A stretch of DNA of 64,000 bases from a virus. The stretch covers positions 42,279 through 106,278 of IMG/VR virus record IMGVR_UViG_3300023179_000041; one strand, given 5' to 3'. A program made the position numbers and the translations under genes. A model generated the notes under the pieces. It made no database searches. It was given only the letters and a program-made list of their open reading frames with translations, and was not told where the DNA came from. Positions 1 through 16,139 of this stretch are shown piece by piece. The number at the start of each line of letters is the position of its first letter. Position 1 is the stretch's first letter.

Positions 1-2
1 GC

Positions 3-323
3 GTTCTTATTGGTAATGCATCCAACGTGCCCACCGCCACCGCGCTGAGCGGAGATATCACAGTTAGTTCGTCTGGCGTAACAGCAATTGCGTCCGGTGT
101 AATTGTCGACGCGGATATTAATTCTTCTGCGGCAATCAGCCAGTCAAAGATTGCGACATCTACTACACAGGTTTGGGGAACTGGGTCGATTGAACTTGGT
201 CACGCGACGGACACGACAATTACAAGAGTTTCGGCTGGAAAGATTGCAGTCGAAGGCGTTACCGTAGCCACTACAACGGATACGAGAGATGTTCTAGTAA
301 GGTTCTACATGGAGGTTATCTGA
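3..323 (+). CDS. tail fibre-like structural protein, 3' part
   Basis: The frame is already open at the left edge (reads VLIGNASNVPTATAL...), so the 5' end lies outside the window. The repeated style G-N-A-S-N-V-P-T-A-x-A-L-S-G-D-I-T followed by V-D-A-D-I-N-S-S-A-A-I-S is common in phage tail-fibre and stalk proteins just before a C-terminal receptor-binding or trimerisation domain. About 107 residues are visible. It sits directly upstream of three further virion-type genes with 1-2 bp gaps, consistent with one late operon. A GTG at position 27 could be mistaken for a start, but the frame continues upstream of it. Which fibre domain this is cannot be told from the fragment. Confidence 0.75.
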   Translation, partial: VLIGNASNVPTATALSGDITVSSSGVTAIASGVIVDADINSSAAISQSKIATSTTQVWGTGSIELGHATDTTITRVSAGKIAVEGVTVATTTDTRDVLVRFYMEVI

Positions 324-324
324 T

Positions 325-687
325 ATGCCATTGACACAAAAGAGACTGGTCGGACCAACTCAGTTGACTACGACGACAAGCACTGTTCTCTATACGGTTC
401 CCCAAAGCACGACCACTATCGTCAAGCAAATAGTGCTGTGCAATACCACGGCGAGCGCTGTGACGGTAACTATGGTCCTCAAGCCGCTGAACGTTGCCCA
501 AGCATCATCGCAGAACTTTTTTAATACCTTGTCAATTGCAGCAAACGAAACGTTGACGTTCCAAACCAACATGGTTTTGACCAATAATGGAAGCACGGCG
601 AACGCTACCAATAGCGACCAAATCATTGGTTCAGCGAGCGCAAATACGGCAATCAATGCATTTATTTATGGCGTAGAAGAGAGTTAG
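325..687 (+). CDS. small virion structural protein (fibre or spike accessory)
   Basis: 120 aa, low in charge, rich in Thr, Ser, Asn and Val, with an alternating pattern that suggests an all-beta fold. It starts with ATG one base after the preceding stop and ends two bases before the next gene, so it is translationally coupled. The region TTTIVKQIVLCNTTASAVTV resembles small beta-sandwich proteins encoded beside actinophage tail fibres. No catalytic motif, signal peptide or membrane segment is seen. The structural role is inferred from context and composition. Confidence 0.65.
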   Translation: MPLTQKRLVGPTQLTTTTSTVLYTVPQSTTTIVKQIVLCNTTASAVTVTMVLKPLNVAQASSQNFFNTLSIAANETLTFQTNMVLTNNGSTANATNSDQIIGSASANTAINAFIYGVEES

Positions 688-689
688 TC

Positions 690-1421
690 GTGGCTGGGTT
701 TGTTCGGATGAACAACTCCACCATTTCAACGGCGGAGTCAACTTCAAGCGTGTCTGGTTCGTTATTGAACCTCGCAACGTACTTGAATTTGCCTGACCCC
801 GTATACGGAACTGGCGCCGACGGCGACGTCACCATAAGCGCGGACACGACCCTGACATCCGACAAGAACTACAAAAACCTCACGTTGGGCGCATTTACGC
901 TCAATCCTGGTGGATACAGAATATTCGTTCAAAATGTCCTCACCTTGGCGAACGGCTCAAGAATTGGGTACACGACAGGATTCACCACCGCTGGAACGCT
1001 CGCCCAGGGTGGAGCAACAAATACTGCCGTTACCCACAGTCTTGGCGGCTCAAGTGGTGCACAAACGGCGACGGCGCCAACAGCGGCACTTGGCGGGTCT
1101 GAGTACTACAGACAGCCCTTACAGGCGATTCGTGGTTGGGCGGTAACGGCTTCCTCTACGACTCCGACATTCCTTCGCGGCGGCGCCGGCGGTTCAAGCG
1201 GCGCTGGCGGCGGGGTCGTTCTTATTTCTGCTCGCTACATCACGGTATCTTCTGGCTCTGCCACATTCAGCGCTCCAGGAACTTCTGGTTCTGGCGGTGG
1301 CGGCGGCGGAGTTATCTTAATTGTCTCATCTGCGTCGGTACTCAATAATGGAGTAACTACTGATGTAACTGGAGGCACTGGGGCGTCGGCGGGCAACGTC
1401 TACTACATGCAGGTCGCATAA
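690..1421 (+). CDS. Gly-rich fibre/adhesin-like protein
   Basis: 243 aa from a GTG start two bases after the preceding stop; an ATG six codons in (708) is the alternative. The N-terminal half carries P-V-Y-G-T-G-A-D-G-D-V-T-I-S-A-D-T-T-L-T and a Y-K-N-L-T-L segment that are repeated closely in the next gene (around residues 22-50 there), so the two are paralogues in this part. The C-terminal half has poly-Gly/Ser runs (GGAGGSSGAGGG and GSGGGGGG), typical of polyglycine-helix receptor-binding tips of phage adhesins. Likely a tail-tip or fibre adhesin; the receptor is unknown. Confidence 0.65.
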   Translation: MAGFVRMNNSTISTAESTSSVSGSLLNLATYLNLPDPVYGTGADGDVTISADTTLTSDKNYKNLTLGAFTLNPGGYRIFVQNVLTLANGSRIGYTTGFTTAGTLAQGGATNTAVTHSLGGSSGAQTATAPTAALGGSEYYRQPLQAIRGWAVTASSTTPTFLRGGAGGSSGAGGGVVLISARYITVSSGSATFSAPGTSGSGGGGGGVILIVSSASVLNNGVTTDVTGGTGASAGNVYYMQVA

Positions 1422-1423
1422 TC

Positions 1424-2458
1424 ATGCCAAACATACAAAGATTCGGGCAGGATAGAGCGCCAGTTCAAAAAACTGGCACGGACAAAATCTTTGGTACTGG
1501 AGTCGACGGCACCGTAACCATCTCGACAAACACGTCTCTTTCTAGGGATATGTATTACGCAAACTTGACGGTCAATTCGAGCGTCACCTTGTTTACCAAC
1601 GGATTCAAAATATTCGTCAGTGAAACGCTAACGAACAACGGAACCATTGGAATGCCCAAGGGCACTGCTCAAACTACTGCCGTACTGGCTGGAACAGTCC
1701 TAACAAGAGTTAATTCAACCGCATCGTGGACGGCAAACCAGTCAATAGATTCGGCAAACAGTTCTGGAAACTTGGCATTTAGTAACACAAAGGGATTTGA
1801 AAATATTCTTGAGGGCGCATATACCACTGGCTCTGCCGTCAACAGATTCTTTGCTGGAGCACAAGGTGCAGCAGGTACCGCAAATCCAGGGAATGCTGGG
1901 AGCGGAGGAAACTCAACTGCGGGGAATCCTGGAACTGCTGGCTCTGCTGGTCTTGGTGGCGGAACTGTGGCAGTGATTGCCAAGACGATTTCTGGTTCTG
2001 GAACTTTTATCAGCGAAGGAACAGACGGTACTTCTGGGTCAAACGGTAACCCTGGAACAACTCAACCTGGAACATCGTTCCACAACCCTGGTGGTCATGC
2101 CCATGCCCCAGCACATGCTCCTGGCCACAATCCTGGTTCGCACAATCCAGAACAATCATTTCACCACCCCGCTGGATGTTGCGCGTGGAACGGCGCACAC
2201 CACCATGACCATCATAGTCACCATCACGTAAACCAAAATGCTTGGCACCACCCAGGAAACCAATTCCATTATCAATATCACTATTCGCACTCACATCCAG
2301 GGAATCCAGGGCATAATCCTACATACCCAGGTGGCACTGGTGGCAGTGGAAATTCTGGAAACCCAGGAAAAGGTGGGAGTCTTTATGTGTTGACACGTGG
2401 TATTTCTACACATATAGCCTCTGGGAACATGACATACGTAGAAGACCTAGACGATTAA
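1424..2458 (+). CDS. Gly- and His-rich fibre/adhesin-like protein
   Basis: 344 aa. The N-terminal part (about residues 1-75) is a paralogue of the preceding gene product (TGVDGTVTI, YYANLTV). A Gly/Asn/Ala-rich collagen-like middle is followed at about residues 215-305 by a dense histidine segment with repeated H-N-P-G, H-A-H-A-P and H-H-D-H-H-S-H-H-H, then more G-x-G. Known phage short tail fibres coordinate metal through His clusters on the trimer axis, and this much larger segment could act similarly. The last about 40 residues return to beta-type sequence. The gene starts 2 bp after its neighbour. Metal binding is inferred from composition only. Confidence 0.65.
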   Translation: MPNIQRFGQDRAPVQKTGTDKIFGTGVDGTVTISTNTSLSRDMYYANLTVNSSVTLFTNGFKIFVSETLTNNGTIGMPKGTAQTTAVLAGTVLTRVNSTASWTANQSIDSANSSGNLAFSNTKGFENILEGAYTTGSAVNRFFAGAQGAAGTANPGNAGSGGNSTAGNPGTAGSAGLGGGTVAVIAKTISGSGTFISEGTDGTSGSNGNPGTTQPGTSFHNPGGHAHAPAHAPGHNPGSHNPEQSFHHPAGCCAWNGAHHHDHHSHHHVNQNAWHHPGNQFHYQYHYSHSHPGNPGHNPTYPGGTGGSGNSGNPGKGGSLYVLTRGISTHIASGNMTYVEDLDD

Positions 2459-2473
2459 AGAGCGATGTAGTGT

Positions 2474-2773
2474 ATGATTGAAGACAGACACATAAGAGAA
2501 CAACTCGGATTTACAGAGGTGATTCAAATGATTGATTTTTCTACTCTTCCAGCAGAAGAGGTTTCTTCGGTAGTTGCCAGAGTCAAAAACGACATTACTG
2601 CCGCTATTTATGAAGGAGTGTTAAGACTTGGTCTTGACCCTGCTTCGTTTGACGAGTCAACTTTTGCTAGTTCATTTGACGAAACGGATGTTGATTACGG
2701 TTTAAAGTCGGTTATTGTCAATTCAATCAATCGCCTCAACTGGGTAAATAACTGGGCTGCTGAAAACCTTTAG
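2474..2773 (+). CDS. hypothetical protein, end of fibre operon
   Basis: 99 aa, acidic, predicted mostly helical (SSVVARVKNDITAAIYEGVLRLGL). ATG 2474 is used; an internal ATG at 2528 (MIDFSTLPAEE) is a credible alternative because the first 18 residues are less conserved in character. No recognisable family. A GGCGC-CTT-GCGCC hairpin (2781-2793) follows the stop and may end the fibre transcript. Confidence 0.6.
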   Translation: MIEDRHIREQLGFTEVIQMIDFSTLPAEEVSSVVARVKNDITAAIYEGVLRLGLDPASFDESTFASSFDETDVDYGLKSVIVNSINRLNWVNNWAAENL

Positions 2774-2780
2774 CCGCTAG

Positions 2781-2793
2781 GGCGCCTTGCGCC
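2781..2793 (+). terminator. short GC hairpin after fibre operon
   Basis: GGCGC-CTT-GCGCC, a perfect 5-bp stem with a 3-nt loop directly after the gene ending at 2773. There is no U-tract. It lies between the structural genes and the oxygenase/halogenase cluster, so it may be a partial terminator. Confidence 0.35.
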
Positions 2794-2809
2794 TTGATAG
2801 TATCCGTAT

Positions 2810-3424
2810 ATGAACTTCATAGAACATTTTTCGTGTCTTCGTGAATACACGTCGGTCTATTCGCCTGGTGATTTTGTAGAACTTGTTGAGCAAGAATGCA
2901 AACAAGATTGGGGATATTTGTCTTGGTATCAAACCCCAATTGGCGGAAACAAGAACAACTTGACAAATGTGGTTGACATTCACCGAACTTCACTCGGTTG
3001 CGAGATGTCCCCAATATCAATGCCGGTGGAGAATGTTTCCCAAGAAAGATTAATACCGCTTGCTAAAAAATGGATGCACATAAGGGAAAGAATCGATAAG
3101 TGCATTTGGCATTACCGCAATACGTATTCCCTCAACCTGAGCGCTGACGAGGGTTTCAGGTTGTTGAAATACGGACGTGGAGCAGAATATAAGGGCCACG
3201 TAGACCACGCCCCAACGAACGCAAGAGTATTAAGTCTCGTGAGTTTTGTTAATGATGGATTTACTGGAGGCGAACTTGTTTTCCCTCTTCTGGACGTTAA
3301 AGTGACGCCGACCGCTGGCTCTGTGCTTTTGTTCCCGTCTAATTTCCCTTACTACCACTATGCCGCCCCAGTTGGCAAAAGTGACGAATCAATAAAGTAT
3401 TCATTAGTTACATGGTTGCAGTGA
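2810..3424 (+). CDS. Fe(II)/2-oxoglutarate oxygenase (prolyl-4-hydroxylase-like)
   Basis: 204 aa. The C-terminal half shows the double-stranded beta-helix signature: H130-V-D132 iron ligands, F-x-G-G-E-L-V-F-P at about 151-159, distal H183 in Y-Y-H-Y-A-A-P-V, and K196 in the position that usually binds the 2-oxoglutarate carboxylate. Family members hydroxylate protein side chains (Pro, Lys, Asp) or small molecules. It opens a seven-gene cluster with a halogenase and two more oxygenase-like proteins; the next gene starts 7 bp downstream. A TAGTAT hexamer ends 6 bp before the ATG, so the mRNA may be leaderless. The substrate is unknown. Confidence 0.85.
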   Translation: MNFIEHFSCLREYTSVYSPGDFVELVEQECKQDWGYLSWYQTPIGGNKNNLTNVVDIHRTSLGCEMSPISMPVENVSQERLIPLAKKWMHIRERIDKCIWHYRNTYSLNLSADEGFRLLKYGRGAEYKGHVDHAPTNARVLSLVSFVNDGFTGGELVFPLLDVKVTPTAGSVLLFPSNFPYYHYAAPVGKSDESIKYSLVTWLQ

Positions 3425-3430
3425 ACAACG

Positions 3431-4885
3431 ATGAAGATAGTAATTGTTGGCTCTGGAACATCGGGATTAGTATCGGCAATAATCCTTAGGGGGCTATTCC
3501 CCTTGTGGGATATCACTGTTGTCTCATCAAAAGACATTGGCATTATTGGGGTCGGCGAAGGCTCAACAGAGCATTGGAGACTTTATTTCCAAGACAAATA
3601 TAACATCCCTGTTTCGGAGATGGTCACAGCCTGTCGCGCAACGCACAAATACGGAATCAAATTTGAAAACTGGACAAAACATACGCCAAATTATTTCCAC
3701 AGCGTAAGTGCTGGAGAGTGGGGTCGCGCGTATTTCCCTGCAAATTATGCGTTCTGTTTGGAGAACAACAAACTATTGACCAATTCTATGGTGACTCATC
3801 TTCACGACAATACGATTGTGTTGAACGAAGGCAACCCACATCATGCCGTAAATCAATTTCATTTTGACACTTTCAAACTTAATGAGTATTTGACAAGCGT
3901 CTGCAAGTTGCGAAATGTATCTTTTATCGATGGAAAGGTATCGCGAGTCACAAGAAACTCAGATAATGGTTTCATAGAGTCGATTGACGTGGATTCTTTC
4001 GGCTTGATAAATGGTGATTTTTTTATTGATGCAAGTGGGTTTCGCAGAGTTTTAATAAGTGAACTCGTTGATTCTGATAAAGACTTTGTTTCATATAGAA
4101 AATACGTTCCTTGCGATTCTGCCGCCGTATTCCCAACGCCACGTGACGAGAGTGGCGAAATTCGCCCATACACAAGGGCAAGAGCGATGCCGAATGGTTG
4201 GATGTGGGAAATCCCGACCCAAGACAGACGAGGCAATGGATATGTATTCGCCTCAGATTTTTGTTCAGAAGAGCAAGCAGTTAGAGAGATTTCGGAAGCC
4301 CACGGAAAAGATATAGAACCAGCAAAAATCATAAAGTTTAAGTCTGGATACCATAAAACCGCTTTCGCATTTAATTGTGTTGCTGTGGGCTTGTCCTCGT
4401 CGTTTGTTGAACCGCTGGAAGCAACTGCGATATCAACATCAATTCAACAAGCGCGAATGCTTGCCTCAGTTCTGCCGACGTTTTCTATTGGCTCAACTGC
4501 AACTGTGTCTCAATATAATAAACAGTACGAATCACTGTTGGAAAACATAATCACCATGGTGGCAATGCACTACATTTCCGACAGAGATGATACCGAAATG
4601 TGGAGAGCACAACAAGGTCTTGAGAAGCCGCCCATGCTTGAACACTTGATATCCCTGTGGAAAGAAAGACTTCCAGAAGCATATGATGTCCCAATATTTG
4701 GGTATGAATTATTTCAGAACGCACACTTTTGGCATGTCGCTCAAGGACAAGGTCTATTGAACCCAGATTTGGCAACTATCCAACTTGACGCATTTGCCGT
4801 ACGTAGAGAAGCAGCAAAAAACATTGCAAATCTAAAAAACGCCGCACTTGGGTCAAAAACCGTTAAGCATCATGCGATTTTTTAA
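3431..4885 (+). CDS. flavin-dependent halogenase (tryptophan-halogenase family)
   Basis: 484 aa, full length for the family. It shows the FAD-binding G-S-G-T-S-G near residue 7, G-V-G-E-G-S-T at 40-46, the halogenase signature W257-M-W259-E-I-P262 (WxWxIP), and L-S-S-S-F-V-E-P-L-E at 321-330. The catalytic Lys (K77, in K-F-E-N-W) and the Glu near the Cl/Lys site (E330, in P-L-E-A-T) both appear present when aligned by eye with PrnA-type enzymes. Such enzymes make HOX from FADH2, O2 and halide and pass it down a tunnel to a lysine haloamine. A cyanophage member of the family is known to halogenate small aromatics in vitro. No flavin reductase is encoded nearby, so host FADH2 would be needed. 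Confidence 0.88.
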   Translation: MKIVIVGSGTSGLVSAIILRGLFPLWDITVVSSKDIGIIGVGEGSTEHWRLYFQDKYNIPVSEMVTACRATHKYGIKFENWTKHTPNYFHSVSAGEWGRAYFPANYAFCLENNKLLTNSMVTHLHDNTIVLNEGNPHHAVNQFHFDTFKLNEYLTSVCKLRNVSFIDGKVSRVTRNSDNGFIESIDVDSFGLINGDFFIDASGFRRVLISELVDSDKDFVSYRKYVPCDSAAVFPTPRDESGEIRPYTRARAMPNGWMWEIPTQDRRGNGYVFASDFCSEEQAVREISEAHGKDIEPAKIIKFKSGYHKTAFAFNCVAVGLSSSFVEPLEATAISTSIQQARMLASVLPTFSIGSTATVSQYNKQYESLLENIITMVAMHYISDRDDTEMWRAQQGLEKPPMLEHLISLWKERLPEAYDVPIFGYELFQNAHFWHVAQGQGLLNPDLATIQLDAFAVRREAAKNIANLKNAALGSKTVKHHAIF

Positions 4886-5735
4886 TCGCAACAAAAAGAG
4901 CAGGGTAGTTCAAGGTTCTGCATGGGAAGATGTACCAATCCCCAAACCCAATGAACTTTTTGTTGTTCCAGCAACGAATGTATTGCTACACCCAAAATTG
5001 TCCGTTTATGAGAATAGGTCAAAAACACCAGACTGGTACAAAAAGGCAATAAGCGGTGAGTCAAGTATCAAACGATGCTATGGGCTGGCTGATTATCTTC
5101 GAACTGGCTACACAATCCCATTGTGGGCAAAATTGGACATACGACCGCCGTTGAATAAATTACAACCCAAATGGGAAGCAAAATACGATTTTTCACACGG
5201 CAACGTTTCCCATGATTTGCAGTTTGTTGATGAACTGGTCGACGATGAATTTTTTTCTATGAATTCATTGTTTCATAATCAGTTTGGTCAAGACCAAGTT
5301 GGTGAGTGTCCAGTGTCTCGCATAAAAACACGACCAAATTCTGCATATCTCAAATTGACAAATCCGTGGTTATTCAAAACCGCACCAGGGTATTCAACGC
5401 TATTTATAGCACCGCAGTGGAGTCCTGACCCAAGATATCAGGTCATGTCTGGAGTTGTAAATACCGATTATTACCATCATGCAAATGTTGTTTTAAACAT
5501 TATTGCAAACGAAGAGTTTTCTATTGAAGAGGGAACTCCGATGCTTCACGCAATCCCATTCAAGCGAGAGGACGGAATAAAAAGCAGTTCATTAATTAGG
5601 GGAGATGAAAGACTACACAAAACCCTAGATGGGCTTGGATTTTTGAATGTTAGGCGTCCGACTGACTGGAAGGGAATGTACAAGCGCGAACAATCTCAAA
5701 TAGATAAGATGATTAAGGAACAAAACAGTGGATAG
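4872..5735 (+). CDS. conserved phage protein of unknown function in halogenase cluster (A)
   Basis: 287 aa from ATG 4872, which overlaps the halogenase stop by 14 bp; an upstream in-frame start at 4848 would overlap more. Features: a basic N-terminus, S-K-T-P-D-W-Y-K-K near residue 55, a motif T-N-P-W-L-F-K-T-A-P-G-Y-S near 166-178, and E-E-F-S-I-E-E-G-T-P-M-L-H-A-I-P-F-K-R near 215-233. The last two motifs have a loose counterpart in the protein at 6889-7620 (SPFFHKTEAF and AANEPLFYLEFL), suggesting two distant homologues in one cluster. It resembles an uncharacterised family often found in marine and freshwater phages beside oxygenases. No catalytic residues can be named. Confidence 0.65.
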   Translation: MRFFNRNKKSRVVQGSAWEDVPIPKPNELFVVPATNVLLHPKLSVYENRSKTPDWYKKAISGESSIKRCYGLADYLRTGYTIPLWAKLDIRPPLNKLQPKWEAKYDFSHGNVSHDLQFVDELVDDEFFSMNSLFHNQFGQDQVGECPVSRIKTRPNSAYLKLTNPWLFKTAPGYSTLFIAPQWSPDPRYQVMSGVVNTDYYHHANVVLNIIANEEFSIEEGTPMLHAIPFKREDGIKSSSLIRGDERLHKTLDGLGFLNVRRPTDWKGMYKREQSQIDKMIKEQNSG

Positions 5736-6195
5736 ATACGTTTTTTGCCCCAATGAATCCATGATGGATGAGGCTGTTTTGCTCGCCAAAGAGTGGTCAT
5801 TGCCAATATTAAACGGTGATTCGGAGCGGTCAAAAAATGTTCATTTTGATAGAAATATTGTTTCCGTTGTTCTGATACCGATATTTAACGGGTTCGAGAA
5901 TTGTCCAGAAGTTCTGGAGCCAAACATGGCATACATATTTAGATACAGAAATGATTTCATAGATTGCGGAGAGTTGGCAGCGGTTCTGTCAACAAAAAAT
6001 CTAGGACTAAATAAAAGTTCTTTTTTACCGATACGAATGGTGTCGCCGCATGAAATAGAAATACTCGTTACAATCTCAAGTCTTGGAGAGTACTCAGTTA
6101 TGATTGCTAAAGATAAAGAGGTTTTTGCTACTCACGATTTTGCGGTTTTGCCAGATGGAAGTTCCTCTATTGAGGACTTAAGCGCGTATGATTAA
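5728..6195 (+). CDS. hypothetical protein in halogenase cluster
   Basis: 155 aa from a GTG that overlaps the preceding stop by 8 bp; it overlaps the next gene by 8 bp, so translation is coupled on both sides. Hydrophobic strands alternate with short polar stretches (NIVSVVLIPIF, EIEILVTISSL), suggesting a small alpha/beta or beta protein. No cysteine clusters, no HxD and no transmembrane helix. Function unknown; position argues for a role with the halogenase and oxygenases. Confidence 0.6.
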   Translation: MDRYVFCPNESMMDEAVLLAKEWSLPILNGDSERSKNVHFDRNIVSVVLIPIFNGFENCPEVLEPNMAYIFRYRNDFIDCGELAAVLSTKNLGLNKSSFLPIRMVSPHEIEILVTISSLGEYSVMIAKDKEVFATHDFAVLPDGSSSIEDLSAYD

Positions 6196-6892
6196 TTTCC
6201 CCAGTGGCAGGTCTACCTGCATAGCATATATAGATAACGCAATATCTGTTGACGATTGCAACTTTCTGATAGCAGAATGCACTAAAAATTATGACAAACT
6301 ATTTTCCCCTGGCCCGACCATAGGTGGCGTAAACACAAGAATCAAAAACTCGATGGATTTTGGTTTGTCCGAAGAATCTGACAAGATTTATCAAACTGGC
6401 AACAATAATTTTTTGAAAGCAACGCAATTTGTCCTAGATGGTCTTGGAACCGCAATGGCTCTATATTTGGAAGAGTTCAAAGAATTGCAGCACTCAACAG
6501 CATTAACGAGTACTGGTTTTAGACTTCAGCACTATCCAAGAAAACAGGGTTATTACAGGCGGCATCATGATGGCGCGCCATGGGACCCGGACCCGATAAA
6601 CAGCAGAGTGCTTGGGGTGGTCATATACTTAAACACCATTAAGCATGGTGGTGGGACAGAATTCCCAGAACAAAATTGCGAGATAGAGGCAAAGGCTGGA
6701 AGAATCGCTCTTTTCCCAGCAAATTGGACACATCCACACGCGGGGAAAGTTCCAATATCATGCGACAAGTGGATTATCAGCACATTTATTGTCTGCGATA
6801 GAATACATTCAGAACAATCAGTCGTTGTTCAGCCAGAGCAAATTAAATCGTATGATGACATTGAAAAACTTTTAGCGAATGAGGAAAAGTGA
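6188..6892 (+). CDS. Fe(II)/2-oxoglutarate oxygenase (P4Hc/PKHD-like)
   Basis: 234 aa. R-R-H126-H-D128-G supplies the HxD iron pair, G-G-G-T-E-F-P-E at about 154-161 is the usual strand after it, and T-H-P-H184-A-G-K gives the distal histidine, with K194 as a possible 2-oxoglutarate ligand. The double His in T-H-P-H is typical of PKHD-type hydroxylases. Together with 2810-3424 and 7622-8233 this makes three oxygenase-like genes within 5.5 kb. The stop overlaps the next start by 4 bp. The substrate may be a protein side chain or the same small molecule handled by the halogenase. Confidence 0.85.
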   Translation: MINFPSGRSTCIAYIDNAISVDDCNFLIAECTKNYDKLFSPGPTIGGVNTRIKNSMDFGLSEESDKIYQTGNNNFLKATQFVLDGLGTAMALYLEEFKELQHSTALTSTGFRLQHYPRKQGYYRRHHDGAPWDPDPINSRVLGVVIYLNTIKHGGGTEFPEQNCEIEAKAGRIALFPANWTHPHAGKVPISCDKWIISTFIVCDRIHSEQSVVVQPEQIKSYDDIEKLLANEEK

Positions 6893-7620
6893 AACAAACT
6901 CCACTTACCATTTATTGGGCACCATACTGGCCGCTGTCTTTAAAATATGACCTAAATCATATATTTCCTTCACCAAAATCTCTGTATGACGAGTGGTTTG
7001 AAAAATATACGCCGCAGCGACGACCAGATGTTTACTTCAACTGCCCTGCGTCTACAAGAAAAATGAAACGAACATTTTCGTTTGTCAACATTGTAGACAC
7101 ACACACCAGATTTAATTCAGATGGGTCAATCGAATATTCACGACCAGAGAAATATCAACTACTGAATGAACTAATTCACCAACCGACTATAGAAAATCAC
7201 CGACTGATAAATGTTCAGTATTCGTTGCTTGTTTTTTGTGAGGAGTCTGTAGTTGCCTCAATGGAGTCCCCGTTTTTTCATAAAACAGAAGCATTCAAAT
7301 ATGGAGCCATAGTGCCTGGGGAGTTTGATGTTGGTCAATGGTACCGCCCATTAAATGCGGAGTTTCAATTATGGGAAAACGTAGACGAACTATATCTTGC
7401 TGCTAATGAGCCGCTCTTCTATCTTGAATTTTTGACCGATAGACCAGTAGTTATGCAAAGGTATCAAGTCACGAAAAGACTAAGCACAATTGCAAGTTCC
7501 CTAATTCATGTAAATCCTCTTGGGAAATTTGCGGGTCTTTCTGAAAAATATCGCATCTTTCAACAATCGCGACTTAGAAGTCAGGTATTGAAAGAAATCA
7601 AGAACAATTTGGTTGATTGA
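6889..7620 (+). CDS. conserved phage protein of unknown function in halogenase cluster (B)
   Basis: 243 aa from a GTG overlapping the previous stop. Recognisable pieces are Y-W-A-P-Y-W-P near the N-terminus, V-Y-F-N-C-P-A (about 48-54), F-V-N-I-V-D-T, E-S-P-F-F-H near 124, G-E-F-D-V-G-Q-W-Y-R-P-L-N-A-E-F near 141-156, and A-A-N-E-P-L-F-Y-L-E-F-L. The order S-P-F-F ... G-x-F ... RPLNxEF ... G/N-E-P-L is shared loosely with protein A at 4872-5735. I recognise it only as a phage-typical unknown family. No membrane segment. Confidence 0.65.
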   Translation: MKQTPLTIYWAPYWPLSLKYDLNHIFPSPKSLYDEWFEKYTPQRRPDVYFNCPASTRKMKRTFSFVNIVDTHTRFNSDGSIEYSRPEKYQLLNELIHQPTIENHRLINVQYSLLVFCEESVVASMESPFFHKTEAFKYGAIVPGEFDVGQWYRPLNAEFQLWENVDELYLAANEPLFYLEFLTDRPVVMQRYQVTKRLSTIASSLIHVNPLGKFAGLSEKYRIFQQSRLRSQVLKEIKNNLVD

Positions 7621-7621
7621 A

Positions 7622-8233
7622 ATGACTATTAAAATAGTTGATTTTTTGTCTGCCGACGAAAGAGCGCGCGTCATTGAGTATGCAATGTGCAGACCGTGGT
7701 CAAAAGACAGTTGGGGACGTTTCACTTGTGACTTTCCTGTTTGGGACGTTCAAAACCTTGACTGGCTGTACGAGAAATCCGCCAATGCGGCATCTGCTGC
7801 GTTTGGCGCAGACGGCATTATTCCGACCTACTACAAATTTTGCAAGTATTCACCGCGTTACGGTATTCCAAGAGTCCCACCACACATAGATGAAAATGCA
7901 TGCACATATACAGTTGACATACAACTTGATTCAAATATTGACTGGTCTATATATATTGATTTTGATGAATATCTCCTTAAGGATGGAGATGCGGTTTTAT
8001 ACATGGGCGAAGACCAACTTCATTGGCGCCCAAAATTTCCAACAGATGATGAGTCGGATTCAATCTCAATGCTTTTCATGCATTATGCGCACCAGAATCA
8101 TTGGTTTTTTGAATATGGACAAGATTTTATGAGAAATCCAGAACTTCACAATATTTGGGTTCAAAGAATGCAAACTTTGCTTGCCTCGAACAAACACAAA
8201 ACGATGACAGAAATTGACGACGGAATATTATGA
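7622..8233 (+). CDS. 2OG-Fe(II) oxygenase-like protein
   Basis: 203 aa. The start is taken at ATG 7622, one base after the previous stop, rather than a TTG at 7613. P-P-H88-I-D90-E-N-A fits the HxD motif, Y-M-G-E-D-Q-L-H134-W-R-P supplies the distal histidine and a possible arginine for 2-oxoglutarate, and the spacing of about 46 residues fits the family. Compared with the two other oxygenases the G-G-E/T-F-P strand is not clear, so assignment is less certain. A leaderless promoter for the next gene overlaps its 3' end. Confidence 0.7.
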   Translation: MTIKIVDFLSADERARVIEYAMCRPWSKDSWGRFTCDFPVWDVQNLDWLYEKSANAASAAFGADGIIPTYYKFCKYSPRYGIPRVPPHIDENACTYTVDIQLDSNIDWSIYIDFDEYLLKDGDAVLYMGEDQLHWRPKFPTDDESDSISMLFMHYAHQNHWFFEYGQDFMRNPELHNIWVQRMQTLLASNKHKTMTEIDDGIL

Positions 8234-8245
8234 ATGTGCTATCAT
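8214..8245 (+). promoter_or_regulatory. promoter, TTGACG / TGC-TATCAT
   Basis: TTGACG, a 20-bp spacer, then TATCAT with an upstream TG dinucleotide (extended -10). The ATG at 8252 lies 6 nt after the -10, which predicts a leaderless mRNA. The long spacer makes the -35 doubtful. Confidence 0.4.
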
Positions 8246-8251
8246 GTTTTC

Positions 8252-8692
8252 ATGAACAAATTTCAACAATTCTTCAGACCAACCACGCAAGATGAATTGG
8301 CAGAACTAGCCAAAAAACTAACCCCTCCAGACGACATAAGAGACCTAGTTCCGATTCCAGGTAGACCAGAAGACTGGCTATTTTACGGAGTACAAAAGAA
8401 AGCACAGTCATTTTTCTCGACGATGGCGGCTCAAACCAAAAGGTTTGGGTCTCGTGAATACTGGACAAAGGTCAACGCAATTGAGGCGATATCCTTCACC
8501 ACGAAGATATCTATCATTTTCCCTGGTCTTTTATTTGGCAAACAATGGTGGTGGCTGTATCTCTTCGCCCTGGTGTCAAGTGCGGCGCTTGTGGCAACAT
8601 CAACCATAAAGACTTTACCGACGATAATTTGGTTCAATATTATTTGGATTGTTCTAGCCTCACTATCAATCGCAAAGCACTTTATTCAATGA
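8252..8692 (+). CDS. small integral membrane protein
   Basis: 146 aa from ATG 8252, chosen because a TATCAT -10 box ends 6 bp upstream. The first about 85 residues are polar and basic and should be cytoplasmic. The rest has three hydrophobic stretches (SIIFPGLLFG, WWWLYLFALVSSAALVATS, IIWFNIIWIVLASLSIA), i.e. two or three transmembrane helices. No family recognised. It sits between the oxygenase cluster and the glycosyltransferases, so it could serve cell-envelope modification, but nothing in the sequence proves this. Confidence 0.65.
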   Translation: MNKFQQFFRPTTQDELAELAKKLTPPDDIRDLVPIPGRPEDWLFYGVQKKAQSFFSTMAAQTKRFGSREYWTKVNAIEAISFTTKISIIFPGLLFGKQWWWLYLFALVSSAALVATSTIKTLPTIIWFNIIWIVLASLSIAKHFIQ

Positions 8693-8809
8693 CGCAAGCG
8701 GCGGGATACTGATAGAAATTCAAGACAACTTGGTTGATTAACTACTTGTTTTCGTTGGCGTAATCAAAAGTCTTAAAAATTTGATGCCCTATACGTTACA
8801 ATTTAGTCA

Positions 8810-9886
8810 ATGAAAATTGGGTACATTTCTCAAGATTGGTCAAAGCATAATGGCAATTCTGTTCCAAACGGATGCACTTGGTACAGGTGCATAGTACCCG
8901 GCAAGGAAATGAAAAAATTTGGGGTGCTGACCGAAGTCGGTCTACTCGCAATGACAAGGAGCAATCAAATTGGCGTACAGCGTGTTGACGGAATGAAAGT
9001 CTCCGGGTTCGACATAATTGTTTTCAAATTGGCAATGCACGTGAGCACACTCGCAGCAGTTGATAGGGCAAAGGGAAACGGTCAAAAAATAGTCGTAGAT
9101 ATAGATGATTGGTTTGATGACCTACCTGATACAAATAGAGCAAAAATTATCACCGACCCAGAGCGAAACCCCTTCAACAACAGAAATATTTATTTTCAAA
9201 TAATTGAACTTGCGGATGCGCTTATTTGCTCAACCGATTTTCTTTATCGCTGGTATAAAAACAAATATCCAAATAAATTGGTATTTTTAGTTCGCAACGC
9301 CATTGATTTGGATAGGTGGGCCAAGTACAAGCCACCAAAAGGAAAACCAGTCATCGGATGGATGGGCGCAACGCCCTGGCGTGCACTTGACTTAGAGCAG
9401 TTGCGTCCGTTTTTTGGGAATTTTATAAAACAACACAAACTAACTTTTCATCATGCCGGCCACATAGAGAATGCCGAGCACGCCGCAGACCTTCTTGGCA
9501 TAGATAGGTCTTTTACTTCAACAGAACCGATGCAGCCAATTACAAATCTCCCTTCACTAATGAAAAAATTCAACATTGGGATTGTTCCGCTAAACAATAT
9601 TGATTTCAATAAGGCCAAGTCATATCTGAAGGGGCTTGAGTATGCGGTTGCCGGAATCCCGTTTGTTGCCTCTGACATGTTTGAGTACAGACTCTTATCT
9701 GATGCTGGGATTGGTCGAATTGCAGATTCCCCAGAGCAATGGCAAGCACACATGGAGGCGCTATTGGATTTCAAGACGCGCAATGAAGATGCTAGAATTA
9801 ATTACGAAATAGCAATATCTGAATTCTCAATAGGTTCGCGTGTCAATGAATGGTTGTCAGTATTCAAAAAAATCTTGGAGCAATAG
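8810..9886 (+). CDS. glycosyltransferase, GT-B fold (GT4-like), copy 1
   Basis: 358 aa, usual length for GT-B enzymes. Conserved points: N-G-C-T-W-Y-R-C near residue 20, K-I-V-V-D-I-D-D near 97-104, V-I-G-W-M-G-A-T-P-W-R near 183-193 (start of the C-terminal Rossmann domain), and K-S-Y-L-K-G-L-E-Y-A-V-A-G-I-P-F-V-A-S near 265-283, the nucleotide-sugar binding E-x7-type motif. It transfers a sugar from a nucleotide donor, probably to a surface polymer, a phage protein or DNA. A TACAAT box ends 7 bp before the ATG, so the transcript may be leaderless. It is a tandem paralogue of the next gene. Confidence 0.85.
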   Translation: MKIGYISQDWSKHNGNSVPNGCTWYRCIVPGKEMKKFGVLTEVGLLAMTRSNQIGVQRVDGMKVSGFDIIVFKLAMHVSTLAAVDRAKGNGQKIVVDIDDWFDDLPDTNRAKIITDPERNPFNNRNIYFQIIELADALICSTDFLYRWYKNKYPNKLVFLVRNAIDLDRWAKYKPPKGKPVIGWMGATPWRALDLEQLRPFFGNFIKQHKLTFHHAGHIENAEHAADLLGIDRSFTSTEPMQPITNLPSLMKKFNIGIVPLNNIDFNKAKSYLKGLEYAVAGIPFVASDMFEYRLLSDAGIGRIADSPEQWQAHMEALLDFKTRNEDARINYEIAISEFSIGSRVNEWLSVFKKILEQ

Positions 9887-9889
9887 TTC

Positions 9890-10984
9890 ATGGCAAAAAT
9901 TGAATTCAGCGTTGGTTTTGTTTCTACCGACTGGTCTCAGGTTGATGGTCAAATAGTGCCAAATGGCTGCACGTGGTACAGATGTATTTTGCCTTCACAT
10001 GAGTTGCTGAAGTCTGGAATAAAATCGGCGGTTGGGCTCATTCAAATTCACGAAAATAGAGGTTTTGGCGTTGGCGGCATCGGGGTGCAAAAAGTAGGTA
10101 CACATAAAATCATTGTGATGAAAGTAATAATGCATAAGTTGGTTCGCGACCATATTAAAAAAGCACAAAAGTACGGCCAAAAAATAGTTGTAGATATCGA
10201 CGATTTGTTTGATGAGATTCATGAAAGCAATATGGCTCACGGCTCGACAGACCCAACAAAAAACAAAGACAACAATCGAGTCATTTATAGTGAAATTATT
10301 GAGGCCTCTGACGCGCTTATTTGCTCGACCCCATTCATAGCGGAACATTACAAAGCAATGTTCCCAAGAAAACCTATATTTGTAATCAGGAATTCAATTG
10401 ATGCCGGTAGATGGATACCATTTAACTCCGTTGAGAGGCAGCCAATTATCGGCTGGCTAGGCGCAACTCCATGGCGCTCATTAGACCTTGAGCAATTATC
10501 TGGTTTTTTCAACGAGTATCTTGAGTCTAGAAATGCAAAATTTCATCATTCGGGATACTTAAAGTGGGCCCCGCTCGCCCATAACAAATTGGGGATTAAG
10601 GATGCAAAGCGCGTAACGGTGTCTCCAATGGTGCCACTTATGGAGTTGCCACAAACATACGCAAACTTTGATATTGGAATTGTGCCGTTAAACGACATAC
10701 CTTTCAATCGAGCAAAATCCTTCATTAAGGGCCTTGAATACGCGGCGGCTGGGATTCCATTTGTTGCTTCTGCACTGCCCGAATATGAATATCTTTCTGC
10801 TTGCGGCATAGGAACGATTGCGTCAAATAAAAGAGAATGGTTTGATGCCCTTGATTCATTGCTGGACGCAGGCAAAAGAGAGAAAGAAAGTTATAGGTGT
10901 AGGAAGATAGTTGAGGCCGATTTTTCTATTCAGGCGCACCGTAAAGAGTGGATTTCCGTGTTTAGGGAGATTGACAAGTTGTAG
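9890..10984 (+). CDS. glycosyltransferase, GT-B fold (GT4-like), copy 2
   Basis: 364 aa, 3 bp downstream of copy 1 and clearly its paralogue along the full length: N-G-C-T-W-Y-R-C, K-I-V-V-D-I-D-D-L-F-D-E, I-I-G-W-L-G-A-T-P-W-R-S-L-D-L-E-Q-L, and K-S-F-I-K-G-L-E-Y-A-A-A-G-I-P-F-V-A-S line up residue for residue. Tandem duplication with divergence suggests two linkages on the same acceptor or two donors. The acceptor is unknown. Nearby candidate acceptors in this window are the Thr-rich protein at 11034-13172 and the tail fibres. Confidence 0.85.
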   Translation: MAKIEFSVGFVSTDWSQVDGQIVPNGCTWYRCILPSHELLKSGIKSAVGLIQIHENRGFGVGGIGVQKVGTHKIIVMKVIMHKLVRDHIKKAQKYGQKIVVDIDDLFDEIHESNMAHGSTDPTKNKDNNRVIYSEIIEASDALICSTPFIAEHYKAMFPRKPIFVIRNSIDAGRWIPFNSVERQPIIGWLGATPWRSLDLEQLSGFFNEYLESRNAKFHHSGYLKWAPLAHNKLGIKDAKRVTVSPMVPLMELPQTYANFDIGIVPLNDIPFNRAKSFIKGLEYAAAGIPFVASALPEYEYLSACGIGTIASNKREWFDALDSLLDAGKREKESYRCRKIVEADFSIQAHRKEWISVFREIDKL

Positions 10985-11033
10985 GACTGCGATATTTTCT
11001 CTATCTGACCAAGAGAAATAGTATGCGGTCAAA

Positions 11034-13172
11034 ATGTCTACTCGCACCCGCATTCGTCGAATCCAGGCCATTGTTTGGCTGATTGCATTTACTGCGTCTC
11101 TTTTTACCTTTGTTAGTTTCCAGTCGCAGCGTGTCGTATTTGCCGACGATGAGCCAACAACAACGACGACGGTTTCCCCTACCACTACAGAGCCCACAAC
11201 AACAACAGTTGAATCTACGACAACAACTGTTGCCATAACTACGACTATTCCGGCGACTACAACTACGGTCGAATCAACTACGACCACTACGGTTTCGCCA
11301 ACTACCACTATAGAACAAGTAACTACGACTACTACGACTGTTCCGCCGACTACAACAACGACAACAGTCCCTCCAACAACAACTACTACCGTTCCCCAGC
11401 AAGTTACGTATACGGCTACGCAATCAACGCGGGACTTTTACTTAGAAATTACAGAAGCGAGAACATTGACAATCAGGACATATGCGCAGTCGTTCGGCAT
11501 TGACTCAATGTTGTGGCTCTACAACTCAAGTAACACAATTCTTGCCGCAAACGACGACTGGTTCGGGCTGGATTCACATATTTCTATTCAACTTCAACCT
11601 GGCACATATCGACTTAGGGCTGGCGTTTGCTGCGGCAACCCGGATGCATGGTACGGAACTTCATACACAATCCAAGCGAATTCTGCATTGGCGCCTACGG
11701 CCGTTACGACTACTACGACTGTTCCGCCGACTACAACTACGACTACAACTACGACTACAACGACAACTACAACGACAACTACAAGTACTACGAGTACTAC
11801 GAGTACAACTACTACGACTGTTCCAACAACTACGACTACGACTACGACTACGACTACGACAAGTACTACGAGTACGACTACTACGACTGTTTATGTAACT
11901 CCGCAGACTACGACGACGACCGCTCCTGTCGTGGAGACAACGCTTCCCCCGACAACAACTGTTCCTGAGCCAGAAGAGACTGCGCCTGAGACGACTGTTC
12001 CTGATGAGACTGAGACGACTGTTCCTGATGAAGCCGAAGAGCCTTCAACAACGACAACCACGATTTTAGAGCCTCAAGAAGAAGACGAAACAACAACAAC
12101 AACAACGACTACTCCTGTTGAGACTGACCCTGGTTTTGAGGCTGAGCCAGATGATGAACAGACCACTCCTCCTGACGAAGAAACAAAGACGCAAGAAGAG
12201 ACACAGTCGACAGAACCAGAAAACCCAGAAAGCCAAACAGAATCAGAATCTCCACAGGACGAAACTGTAACAGAAATAGTTGAAGGGCTTACTGAAGTTC
12301 TAGACGAAGATGCCTCGGCAGAAGATGTGACTGCTGCCGTTGAGGACGTCCTTGAATCAATCACGGATAAGGAAGAGGTAGCCGCCTTAGTCGAGGCAAT
12401 TCTTGATGCAATCACGGAAGATAAGCCTGTCGAGCAGTTGACCGAAGAAGATAAAGAAAAGATTGTAGCGGTGGTAGAAGCAGTCATAAGCGCCGGTATT
12501 GATTCTTCAGTCGCCTCAGAACTGGCTTCTAGCGCTGCGGTTCTTGAGTCTGTTTCTGTTGACCAAGCCAAAACCATTTTTGCTTCAGTAGACGAAAGCG
12601 CCCTGACTGAAGAGGTTGCCGAACAAATAGTTGACGCGGTGCAGGAAGCCCCCTCAGAGATTCGTGAAGTCTTTGAAGACGTCGTCAGCCTGTTCTCCGG
12701 CGCATTCGACTCCTATAAGATGCTCGGTTCAAATATCGATGTTGGGCAACGCCGAACAGTTGTTGCGGCAACTCTTCTAACTTCTGCCGGAGCGGCTTCG
12801 GCCATGCTCGGGACGTCTAGGCCCACCCCTAGCGGGTCTGCCCCGTCTAGTCCGAGCACACGGCAAGACACTGCGACTAGACGGGATGATGAGGAAGAAT
12901 CTGAGCCTGCCGGCGAGATTGCTGGCGACGGTCTGGATTGGATTAGGAGTATAAGTATTTACAAATACGTAAATGGAGTAAAGGTTATGGACTGGAAAGC
13001 ATTCATCAAAAAGTTTGTCTACGGGTTGCTCAATATGGGCTTCACCATCGCTGGCTCCCTTGTTGTGTATTTAACTCTGTCTGGAGCCATTCAGAAGATT
13101 GCTGGCATCTCAACAGTTCTGGCAATCGCTGCCGCTCTATATTTGCACATGAAGGAGCCTGGAGAAGGCTGA
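11034..13172 (+). CDS. secreted Thr-rich, membrane-anchored surface-type protein
   Basis: 712 aa. Residues 1-37 are a basic start plus hydrophobic core (signal peptide or anchor). Then come Thr-rich linkers with V-P-P/V-S-P punctuation (about 41-121 and 224-350) flanking a domain at about 125-216 (Y-x-L-E-I-x-E-A-R-T-L-T-I ... L-Q-P-G-T-Y-R-L-R-A-G) that looks like a PPC-type beta domain. A long acidic segment follows, then helical repeats around 410-560, and a C-terminal hydrophobic region at about 665-705. VPPTTTT linkers are typical of actinobacterial surface proteins and are candidate O-glycosylation sites. It lies just after two glycosyltransferases. Virion versus host-surface location is not known. 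Confidence 0.7.
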   Translation: MSTRTRIRRIQAIVWLIAFTASLFTFVSFQSQRVVFADDEPTTTTTVSPTTTEPTTTTVESTTTTVAITTTIPATTTTVESTTTTTVSPTTTIEQVTTTTTTVPPTTTTTTVPPTTTTTVPQQVTYTATQSTRDFYLEITEARTLTIRTYAQSFGIDSMLWLYNSSNTILAANDDWFGLDSHISIQLQPGTYRLRAGVCCGNPDAWYGTSYTIQANSALAPTAVTTTTTVPPTTTTTTTTTTTTTTTTTTSTTSTTSTTTTTVPTTTTTTTTTTTTSTTSTTTTTVYVTPQTTTTTAPVVETTLPPTTTVPEPEETAPETTVPDETETTVPDEAEEPSTTTTTILEPQEEDETTTTTTTTPVETDPGFEAEPDDEQTTPPDEETKTQEETQSTEPENPESQTESESPQDETVTEIVEGLTEVLDEDASAEDVTAAVEDVLESITDKEEVAALVEAILDAITEDKPVEQLTEEDKEKIVAVVEAVISAGIDSSVASELASSAAVLESVSVDQAKTIFASVDESALTEEVAEQIVDAVQEAPSEIREVFEDVVSLFSGAFDSYKMLGSNIDVGQRRTVVAATLLTSAGAASAMLGTSRPTPSGSAPSSPSTRQDTATRRDDEEESEPAGEIAGDGLDWIRSISIYKYVNGVKVMDWKAFIKKFVYGLLNMGFTIAGSLVVYLTLSGAIQKIAGISTVLAIAAALYLHMKEPGEG
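11700..11890 (+). repeat. ACT/ACG trinucleotide tract in Thr-rich coding region
   Basis: Within the second Thr linker the DNA is a long microsatellite of ACT, ACA and ACG codons in 6-base and 15-base sub-repeats. Such tracts expand and contract by slippage in multiples of three, which would change linker length without breaking the frame. Confidence 0.8.
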
Positions 13173-13221
13173 TTCGCGCTAGACTAATCGCACCAAATAA
13201 CCACAACCCAAAGAGGTGCAA

Positions 13222-13686
13222 ATGCAAGCAGAACAAGACGTCCTAGACATGGCCAAGCGCGAGTGCAAAGGCTTGGCAACAGACGAAGAAATTGCATGGC
13301 TTCACGATGACGAGAACAGATTGGCTTGGTGCCACGCGCTAATCACTGCCCTGTCCGACAGCGAATCTCAAGTTGTATTTCACAAAAGCCGAATTGATAT
13401 GATGGCTAAGGATGTCGAACTTGGGATTAAAGATGCAAACGATTACTACGAGGAAAAGCAAAAATTTGACGAGTGGGTTCGCAAGTCTCAGCGATACCGC
13501 AACGGCATCAGCAAAAGGCTTTCTGAAGTCAAGACCATCCTTGCAGATACGGATGGGTTGGACCTTGTCGAGGAAAACGCCAAACTTGTCAAGGCAATCC
13601 TTGAGCACAAGCGTGCTTCTTTTGATGGCGAATATACAGCCGAGCCGCACGACATAAAACTATGGTCGGTGATTCCAAGCCGGTAA
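13222..13686 (+). CDS. hypothetical protein upstream of SNF2 helicase
   Basis: 154 aa. ATG 13222 is chosen because GAGG lies 5-9 bases upstream; a GTG two codons earlier (13216) falls on that SD. Acidic and highly helical (LGIKDANDYYEEKQKFDEWVRKSQRYRNGISKRL), likely a coiled coil. It overlaps the SNF2 gene by 25 bp, so the two are probably co-translated and may act together. No known family. Confidence 0.65.
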   Translation: MQAEQDVLDMAKRECKGLATDEEIAWLHDDENRLAWCHALITALSDSESQVVFHKSRIDMMAKDVELGIKDANDYYEEKQKFDEWVRKSQRYRNGISKRLSEVKTILADTDGLDLVEENAKLVKAILEHKRASFDGEYTAEPHDIKLWSVIPSR

Positions 13687-15854: not shown

Positions 15855-15877
15855 TAAAGACCTTAGTCAGACTATAC

Positions 15878-15926
15878 GACTCCTTGGTTGAGACTGTTGG
15901 TGGCAAAAGCCATCAACAAAGGAGTC
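15878..15926 (+). promoter_or_regulatory. alternative RNA hairpins covering the SD of the first holin-like gene
   Basis: Arm 15878-15891 (GACTCCTTGGTTGA) can pair with 15913-15926 (TCAACAAAGGAGTC) over 13 of 14 positions, burying the SD AAAGGAG. A competing inner hairpin, GTTGGTGGC-AAAA-GCCATCAAC (15896-15917), would leave the SD partly free. This is a plausible translational switch timing lysis. It rests on base complementarity only. Confidence 0.45.
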
Positions 15927-15929
15927 ATC

Positions 15930-16139
15930 ATGGACAAAAAGACCCAGACACTCGACCAAGTTGTTAAGGGCGGCGCTCTTGGCGTCGTTGTTTATCTTTG
16001 CGATAAGTACAGCGTCGACGCGACATTGACTGCTCTTTTGATGCCGCTTGCTGCTGCCGTTTTTGCTTGGGCAAGCACCAAGGTCGGTGACCCATCGGTT
16101 GCTTCATTCCTTGCAAAGAAGGAGCAGGCCAAGAAATAG
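15930..16139 (+). CDS. small membrane protein, holin-like (1)
   Basis: 69 aa from ATG 15930 with SD AAAGGAG at 15918-15924; upstream in-frame codons from 15888 are not used. Residues about 14-45 are hydrophobic (GALGVVVYLCD ... ALLMPLAAAVFAWAS), giving one or two membrane helices, and the tail is charged (KKEQAKK). Size, topology and position upstream of an endolysin fit a holin or its partner. A second small membrane protein follows, so this may be a holin/antiholin pair. Confidence 0.65.
   Translation: MDKKTQTLDQVVKGGALGVVVYLCDKYSVDATLTALLMPLAAAVFAWASTKVGDPSVASFLAKKEQAKK

Follow-up and report, generated by a model that had tools for sequence, protein, structure and literature searches.

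The halogenase cluster and its surroundings

In all, an ORF check of the record identified seven consecutive open reading frames, named A to G, at positions 2810–8233 of the plus strand of the window, by which we mean the whole 64,000-nt stretch of viral DNA that was analysed. Five of the six junctions between them are overlaps of 4–14 bases, while A and B are separated by a gap of 6 bases, so that the description in an earlier, sequence-only reading of this DNA (seven genes, nearly all overlapping) holds. These genes are real and translationally coupled. The features of the locus, including the genes that flank the cluster (U1 to U4 upstream, H downstream), are as follows:

325–687, plus strand: U1, small protein preceding the fibre pair, conserved neighbour (phrog_20100, unknown function, 3e-9; 49 of 75 halogenase groups)
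690–1421, plus strand: U2, glycine-rich fibre protein, N-domain in common with U3, without His-rich insert (N-domain profile; 60 of 75 groups)
1424–2458, plus strand: U3, glycine-rich tail-fibre adhesin, proposed substrate (N-domain matches hafunavirus adhesins; reciprocal linkage with the halogenase)
2078–2320, plus strand: His/Asn/Pro/Tyr-rich insert of U3, approximately residues 219–299, proposed modification site (composition; disordered in the model)
2474–2773, plus strand: U4, small, probably helical protein (314 relatives in loci)
2810–3424, plus strand: A, predicted 2OG-Fe(II) oxygenase (PF13640, 1.8e-11; HxD, His and Lys/Arg conserved)
3431–4885, plus strand: B, predicted flavin-dependent halogenase (PF04820, 5e-97; catalytic residues in 74 of 74)
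4872–5735 (from ATG; possible alternative TTG start at 4848), plus strand: C, predicted dUTPase-fold protein lacking the catalytic Asp (phrog_7084, weak DUF6065; 66 of 75 groups)
5728–6195, plus strand: D, conserved protein (present in 43 of 75 groups)
6188–6892, plus strand: E, predicted 2OG-Fe(II) oxygenase (PF13640, 2.5e-10)
6889–7620, plus strand: F, phrog_17480 protein (1.5e-19; 11 of 75 groups)
7613–8233, plus strand: G, HxD...H protein, probably 2OG-type (phrog_2954, 1.7e-15; His, Asp and His in 19 of 19)
8234–8692, plus strand: H, small hydrophobic protein, probably in the membrane, often found nearby (39 of 75 groups)

The Gly/His fibre that the sequence-only reading had placed just upstream of the cluster is U3. 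Protein H gave no family match of useful score with the Pfam and PHROG profiles. No RNA element was matched with Rfam in positions 1–16,000, and scans for promoters and terminators yielded no useful excess. The virus carrying this cluster is a virus of freshwater bacteria.

Enzymes and companion proteins of the cluster

Protein B scored above the Pfam cut-off with PF04820 and also matched the PHROG tryptophan halogenase profile (5e-103) and the tryptophan halogenases in the PDB (1e-57). The family alignment comprises 74 of 75 representatives, the other one being of insufficient length. All 74 members share the three Gly of GxGxxG, the Lys (K73), the first Trp and the Pro of GWxWxIP and the two Glu of FVEPLE, whereas the second Trp of GWxWxIP is replaced by Phe in nine and retained in the other 65. 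By its motifs and Pfam score, B is predicted to be an intact flavin-dependent halogenase, and the WxWxIP, catalytic Lys and Glu noticed in the sequence-only reading are thus borne out across the family. That reading had also seen no flavin reductase: neither PF01613 nor PF03358 found one in the 106 kb record, each profile having matched in 13 of 14 control genomes.

Three HxD...H proteins had likewise been proposed, and all three stand. Proteins A and E scored above the Pfam cut-off with PF13640; among 199 sequences of the A/E family, the first His is present in 195, the Asp in 193, the second His in 193 and the Lys/Arg in 192. The iron triad, the 2OG-binding Lys/Arg and the score all agree with the PF13640 family, and A and E are classed here as predicted 2OG-Fe(II) oxygenases. 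Protein G gave nothing above cut-off in Pfam or NCBIfam, and its sole profile match was phrog_2954 (PHROG), labelled "ferrochelatase". All 19 members of its family have the His-x-Asp and the second, later His, and because of this HxD...H arrangement, G may work like a 2OG oxygenase; despite missing the PF13640 threshold, it is probably of the 2OG type, as a candidate function.

PF00692 (dUTPase) matched 12 of 45 members of the C family, and the predicted model of C resembles dUTPases, the only proteins among the matches listed by Foldseek and VIA. Profile and model therefore assign a predicted dUTPase fold to C. The Asp of the third motif is a catalytic residue of dUTPases; at the aligned place, C has His or Asn, for which reason we rejected the family found here as working dUTPases. 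Protein F had no fold match. The suggestion that two unknowns of the cluster (presumably C and F) are distantly related was not established, the profile comparison giving 3% probability (P 0.015), and this kinship was dropped. Across 39 members, D yielded no Pfam family beyond weak rows at chance level.

The fibre pair and its linkage to the halogenase

Within the record itself, the N-domain profile picks up U2 as well as U3. Over 90 fibres, His makes up 15.4% of the U3 insert versus 0.6% of U2. In the window, the parsed U3 insert (106 residues) contains 23 His, 3 Tyr and 2 Trp. Seventy inserts were usable, 20 of the 90 fibres having been dropped as cut or unparsable, and all 70 contain at least five His; Trp is absent from 26 of them and Tyr from one. 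Therefore, only His fits as the common target residue, and Trp of the U3 insert was rejected as a single general target. A Trp elsewhere in the fibre pair is a possible target: every usable locus has Trp in at least one of U2 and U3. The likeliest halogenated residues in the window are His and Tyr. The U3 model, with a pLDDT of 61 and no Foldseek match, does not confirm a polyglycine-II sandwich fold, and the insert is predicted to be disordered in it. U3 shares several traits with gp38-type polyglycine adhesins: it is glycine-rich, has a variable segment, lies at the end of the tail-fibre block and is akin to known adhesins.

The nearest known adhesins are those of hafunaviruses (haloarchaeal viruses), grouped with the gp38-type adhesins of T-even phages. 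The N-domain of U3 matches the former, which are host-range determinants according to PMC8651126. In the hafunaviruses HF2, HRTV and HJTV, the adhesin has a related N-domain, is glycine-rich like U3 and closes the tail-fibre block, and a relative of C lies about 0.9 kb downstream. Unlike the window, four hafunavirus records have no halogenase or 2OG gene beside the adhesin, and, unlike U3, these adhesins have no His-rich insert (0–3 His in the four examined).

The same gene set was also sought in other phages, as the sequence-only reading had proposed, and the arrangement proved common to many viral contigs. Counting from the halogenase, 44 of 53 groups have a U2/U3 fibre no more than 9 kb away; the commonest neighbours among 75 halogenase groups are C (66), 2OG genes (64) and then the fibre U2, while families from outside the module occur in 13 groups at most. 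Counting from the fibre (locus L075 included), a halogenase is present in 68 of 80, 64 of 80 and 60 of 68 loci in the three scans, in total 192 of 228. Among the 36 loci without halogenase, 34 are cut within 1.7 kb behind the fibre, and the remaining two represent one cut contig with a His-poor fibre. The counted loci are related and in part come from the same contigs, so the counts are not independent. The linkage is kept despite altered gene order and strand, at approximately 40–50% halogenase identity. Two loci (L021 and L023) combine halogenase, 2OG and C genes but lack a U2/U3-type fibre, which counts against a role in adhesin modification. In all, the linkage of fibre and halogenase is near-obligate.

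A fibre neighbourhood recurs in two other, separate groups of phage halogenases. VirX1 of cyanophage Syn10 (PDB 6qgm) belongs to the same enzyme family as B but, unlike B, to a separate group of the halogenase tree, with another fibre family; its gene adjoins tandem Gly/His-rich fibre-like genes and a relative of C, with a 2OG gene further on. Gly-rich neighbours occur in 40 of 45 VirX1-type loci and in all three readable S-SRM01-type loci; at the VirX1 loci, Gly-rich ORFs number 95 of 413 up to 3 kb away and none of 44 beyond 6 kb, a difference in the expected direction, with a small far sample. In the cultured phage S-SRM01, the halogenase lies between a tail fibre and an annotated gp38-type adhesin. 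The loop of this adhesin, unlike that of U3, is Trp/Cys-rich and has no His, and this stretch, unlike the window, has no C and no match to the 2OG family.

The linkage could be the legacy of a single chance insertion of cargo beside the fibres, devoid of functional meaning. Indeed, 42 fibre-linked representatives share one clade of the halogenase tree with 13 that lack the link, a large part of which are cut, so most of the counted loci may stem from one event. Persistence of the linkage at such divergence and through changes of order and strand, its recurrence with other fibres in the two groups above and the invariant catalytic residues of B all speak against this origin, which we consider very improbable.

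A proposed role in adhesin maturation

The enzymes adjoin a His-rich fibre in many related viral sequences, which suggests decoration of the phage's own host-recognition tip: the cluster probably serves to mature the tail adhesin of the phage itself. The sequence-only reading had named two possible targets, a protein of the virion and a small molecule that is secreted; comparative evidence favours the former, in the shape of the His-rich adhesin.

Synthesis or decoration of a small molecule that carries halogen and hydroxyl groups (a free amino acid, a sugar-linked metabolite, a toxin or a part of the capsule) appears to us an unlikely purpose of the cluster. Such a reading is in print for cyanophages S-SSM7 and S-SSM6a, where a ten-gene halogenase/2OG/carbamoyltransferase cluster is taken as secondary-metabolite or capsule chemistry (PMC7824862); like the cluster A to G, it joins a halogenase with several 2OG-type enzymes but, unlike A to G, it includes carbamoyltransferases. 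VirX1 accepts many small aromatics (PMC8407142), and several cyanophage halogenases stand amid metabolic genes, some with no fibre near. However, Pfam and NCBIfam recognised neither a scaffold-making enzyme nor a carrier protein nor a precursor in the cluster, in keeping with the earlier remark that no NRPS or peptide precursor is visible, although U4 is a possible unrecognised precursor. A small-molecule product would also leave unexplained both the His-rich loop and the tie of the halogenase to one fibre family, where the loci without the enzyme are nearly all cut.

Linkage speaks for partnership, not for the identity of the substrate, and the enzymes could act on a different protein of the virion or the host (such as U2, the long fibre or one on the host surface), U3 being nearby by virtue of a shared host-range region. 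U2 and the long fibre lie just as near, and C stands near adhesins also where these enzymes are missing. The His-rich insert, however, is in U3 and absent from U2, and the S-SRM01 halogenase directly adjoins its adhesin; we hold another protein target to be improbable.

In the proposed maturation of the adhesin, U3, with its His/Asn/Pro-rich disordered loop, would be made late in infection together with the enzymes encoded downstream. A, E and probably G would hydroxylate Asn, Pro, His or Asp side chains of the loop, and B, using FADH2 supplied by the host, would halogenate aromatic or imidazole rings (His, Tyr, and Trp where present). The modified tip would then bind the host receptor. What we infer is which substrate the enzymes act on, at which residue, with which halide and when, what C, D and U4 do, and how the phage benefits.

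Phage enzymes are known to glycosylate phage tail and head proteins; the proposed module is alike in that the phage's own enzymes would modify its own virion proteins. To our knowledge, halogenation or hydroxylation of a phage adhesin has not been described, and none of the titles and abstract openings listed from the open-licence PMC literature reports fibre halogenation.

We lean slightly towards a broader reading, by which tailed phages add halogens and hydroxyl groups to their own receptor-binding tips, a task that would be the native function of fibre-linked viral flavin halogenases, including VirX1. Since the target here would be a His-rich loop, B would halogenate histidine (or tyrosine) in a protein, and C would be a factor dedicated to adhesins in viruses ranging from actinophages to those of haloarchaea. 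The purpose of viral halogenases becomes directly testable, as the candidate substrate is encoded by the adjacent gene, also for VirX1, an enzyme of known structure and activity. If true, phage host recognition would be tuned or diversified covalently, in a manner invisible in the protein sequence, and fibre-linked halogenases would offer starting points for the site-directed halogenation of proteins.

U4, D and C, for their part, would serve the adhesin and not the chemistry, e.g., as chaperone or adaptor. The gene preceding U4 is a fibre gene in 210 and C in 61 of its 314 relatives in loci.

Gene cluster and genomic setting

The seven-gene coupled cluster described by the sequence-only reading was recovered as seven plus-strand ORFs (A to G) in one run, directly 3′ of the tail-fibre genes; the order is U1 (a small protein gene), U2, U3, U4 and then the cluster.

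690-1421: U2, Gly-rich fibre protein
1424-2458: U3, Gly-rich fibre protein, proposed substrate adhesin
2474-2773: U4, small, probably helical protein
2810-8233, plus strand: cluster A to G
3431-4885, plus strand: B, halogenase
4872-5735, plus strand: C

B is a complete flavin-dependent halogenase (PF04820, 5e-97; PDB Trp halogenases, 1e-57). A and E are 2OG oxygenases by PF13640, and G has the HxD...H signature with no Pfam match. The family libraries searched gave nothing useful for C, D and F, save a weak DUF6065 match (C) and PHROGs of unknown function (C and F). The record is a virus contig of 106,278 bases, in which the 20 kb preceding the window encode a portal, a major head protein and a long fibre (1873 aa or more). 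Its two WhiB genes point to a putative actinobacterial host (Corynebacterium was the sole genome matched among 14 controls of that search). FADH2 for the halogenase would be supplied by the host, since a search of the record for two flavin reductase families found none.

Directly after the module lie two adjacent, related glycosyltransferase-like genes (8810-9886 and 9890-10984; phrog_7162), followed at 11034-13172 by a Thr-rich protein of 712 aa with long TTTTT runs, hydrophobic stretches near the C-terminus and no PHROG match.

Linkage of halogenase and fibre

We read the cluster as probably an adhesin maturation module. A halogenase-led scan of viral contigs (80 of 121 relatives kept) gave 79 loci, which with the window make 80; the L075 halogenase is a fragment not called as an ORF. 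At 90% identity these form 53 groups, a family being counted when any group member shows it. A U2 or U3 fibre lies within 9 kb of the halogenase in 44 groups; C occurs in 49, A in 44, D in 31, E and H (a small hydrophobic protein after G) in 24 each, and F and G in 10 each. The glycosyltransferase-like pair (3 of 53) is outside the conserved core. A search for the same gene set in other phages had been proposed from the sequence, and the module was indeed found across viral contigs: once isolates and the loci of the first fibre scan were included, the 75 resulting halogenase groups include C in 66, 2OG genes in 64, U2 in 60, U1 in 49, D in 43, H in 39 and G in 19, while no family outside the module exceeds 13 (U3 is too variable for this clustering). 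Gene order varies, the enzymes lying 3′ of the fibre or 5′ of it (L042, L064, L067, L073), and in L056-L060 the fibre is on the opposite strand. Contigs of two MAGs also carry the module (L167 and L169 in one, L168 in the other). Just 5′ of the halogenase in many loci, proteins of ~235 aa (L015:9273-9998, L105:12943-13665, L069:9234-9980) look methyltransferase-like by eye; the two scanned had no Pfam match.

Starting from the fibre instead, three scans, each with its own lead sequence, took the best 80 of 261, 324 and 396 relatives, respectively; 12 loci of the third were already in the set, leaving 68. A halogenase is present in 68/80, 64/80 and 60/68 loci (that of L075 counted from the halogenase-led scan), trials that are not independent, as loci are shared between scans and several contigs are near-identical. 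In 34 of the 36 loci lacking a halogenase, the sequence ends 1.7 kb or less past the fibre, at a point before or near the distance where the halogenase is usually found (median 1.3 to 1.8 kb, up to 2.5 kb). The remaining two entries, L134 and L485, represent a single contig truncated 0.5 kb 5′ of its fibre, which has no His-rich insert; a halogenase search of the contig's 35 kb gave no match.

In a halogenase tree (quick method), B belongs to a clade of 55 rows (SH-aLRT 99), 42 of them fibre-linked. Among the 13 unlinked rows, L206 and L168 retain a truncated His-rich fibre, the fibre-side sequence is cut off in L041, L072 and L194, and several others start ~1 kb or less 5′ of the halogenase; for L021 (and the similar L023), a fibre profile found no match in the record.

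For a cyanophage cluster of related type, a published interpretation is a secondary metabolite or capsule decoration (PMC7824862, excerpt). Counter-evidence to adhesin maturation comes from the cyanophages S-PM2, S-RIM44, Sf-CH3, ACG-2014c and S-B64, whose halogenases lie amid metabolic or replication genes, and from P-SSM2 and HTVC008M, whose halogenases are near 2OG genes and not near this fibre.

Parallel halogenase groups and protein C

Outside the 55-row clade fall S-SRM01, on a long branch of uncertain placement, and the group of VirX1, the structurally solved viral halogenase (L332:5986-7575, cyanophage Syn10). The VirX1 locus likewise has tandem Gly-rich proteins with His/Tyr-containing ends upstream, a C relative downstream and a 2OG enzyme further on. 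After dereplication the VirX1-type set comprises 45 loci: Gly-rich neighbours lie within 5.5 kb in 40 of them, a C relative is present in 35 and a relative of the 2OG genes or of G in 33. Counted together with three S-SRM01-type loci, whose sole contribution is Gly-rich neighbours, the figures become 43, 35 and 33 of 48. The S-SRM01 halogenase gene is followed by that of an annotated gp38-type adhesin with a Trp/Cys-rich loop (HHpred match to PF05268; PMC8557907, excerpt); of four more S-SRM01-type loci, three have a Gly-rich gene at the adhesin position and the fourth comprises the halogenase end only. In L348-L413, VirX1-type loci show two or three nearly equal Gly-rich fibre genes in tandem 5′ of the halogenase, many with one or two extra halogenases on the opposite strand.

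The N-terminal domain common to U2 and U3 matches "putative adhesins" of haloarchaeal hafunaviruses (best E 3e-4; of 17 matching records with E up to 0.1, 16 are haloarchaeal), which are described as host-range determining, glycine-rich and T-even-like (PMC8651126, excerpt). A C relative lies ~0.9 kb downstream of the adhesin in 4/4 records examined, across two unannotated genes with no halogenase or 2OG gene between, and the four adhesins have 0-3 His, a comparison weak on its own as haloarchaeal proteins differ in composition anyway. That these four records keep C without the enzymes and with few His suggests that C goes with the adhesin, and His-rich loops with the enzymes.

When 45 C proteins were compared with Pfam, 12 matched the dUTPase model (best 1.1e-6) and 14 DUF6065. 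For the structure model of C (pLDDT 87), dUTPases are the only matches among those listed by Foldseek and VIA (Z 9.2, rmsd 2.7, 114 residues); His or Asn occupies the position of the dUTPase catalytic Asp. A C-led scan gave 72 new loci, 67 with a halogenase and 59 with a fibre; near C, L214 and L240 lack both, and the remaining three halogenase-free loci are cut on that side. On the simplest idea, C would be a factor serving the adhesin and built on a borrowed fold.

Fibre insert and candidate target residues

U3 has glycine-rich stretches and a His/Asn/Pro/Tyr-rich insert predicted to be disordered. In 90 halogenase-linked fibres (representatives of 251 at 80% identity), His makes up 15.4% of the insert versus 0.6% of U2 and 0.7% of the N-domain. 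After 20 fibres were dropped, all 70 usable inserts hold at least five His, 69 hold Tyr and 44 Trp. Judged by composition, His would be the most constant candidate target; Tyr, being this frequent, and Trp, which every usable locus has in U2, U3 or both, are candidates as well. Both bromohistidine and halotyrosines occur as residues in nature (PMC8659048, excerpt). Other literature consulted in excerpt comprises PMC7029224, PMC10452541, PMC6864650 and PMC8407142. The cut fibre end L206:1-1326 is 24% His, with long NHHHHT-like repeat runs.

U4, of ~80 aa with the motif IYxxLxxxGLDPDT, has 314 relatives in the loci; 210 are preceded by a fibre and 61 by C, with D following in 133 and a 2OG gene in 90. 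Its role may be that of a chaperone for the fibre or of an adaptor for the enzymes.
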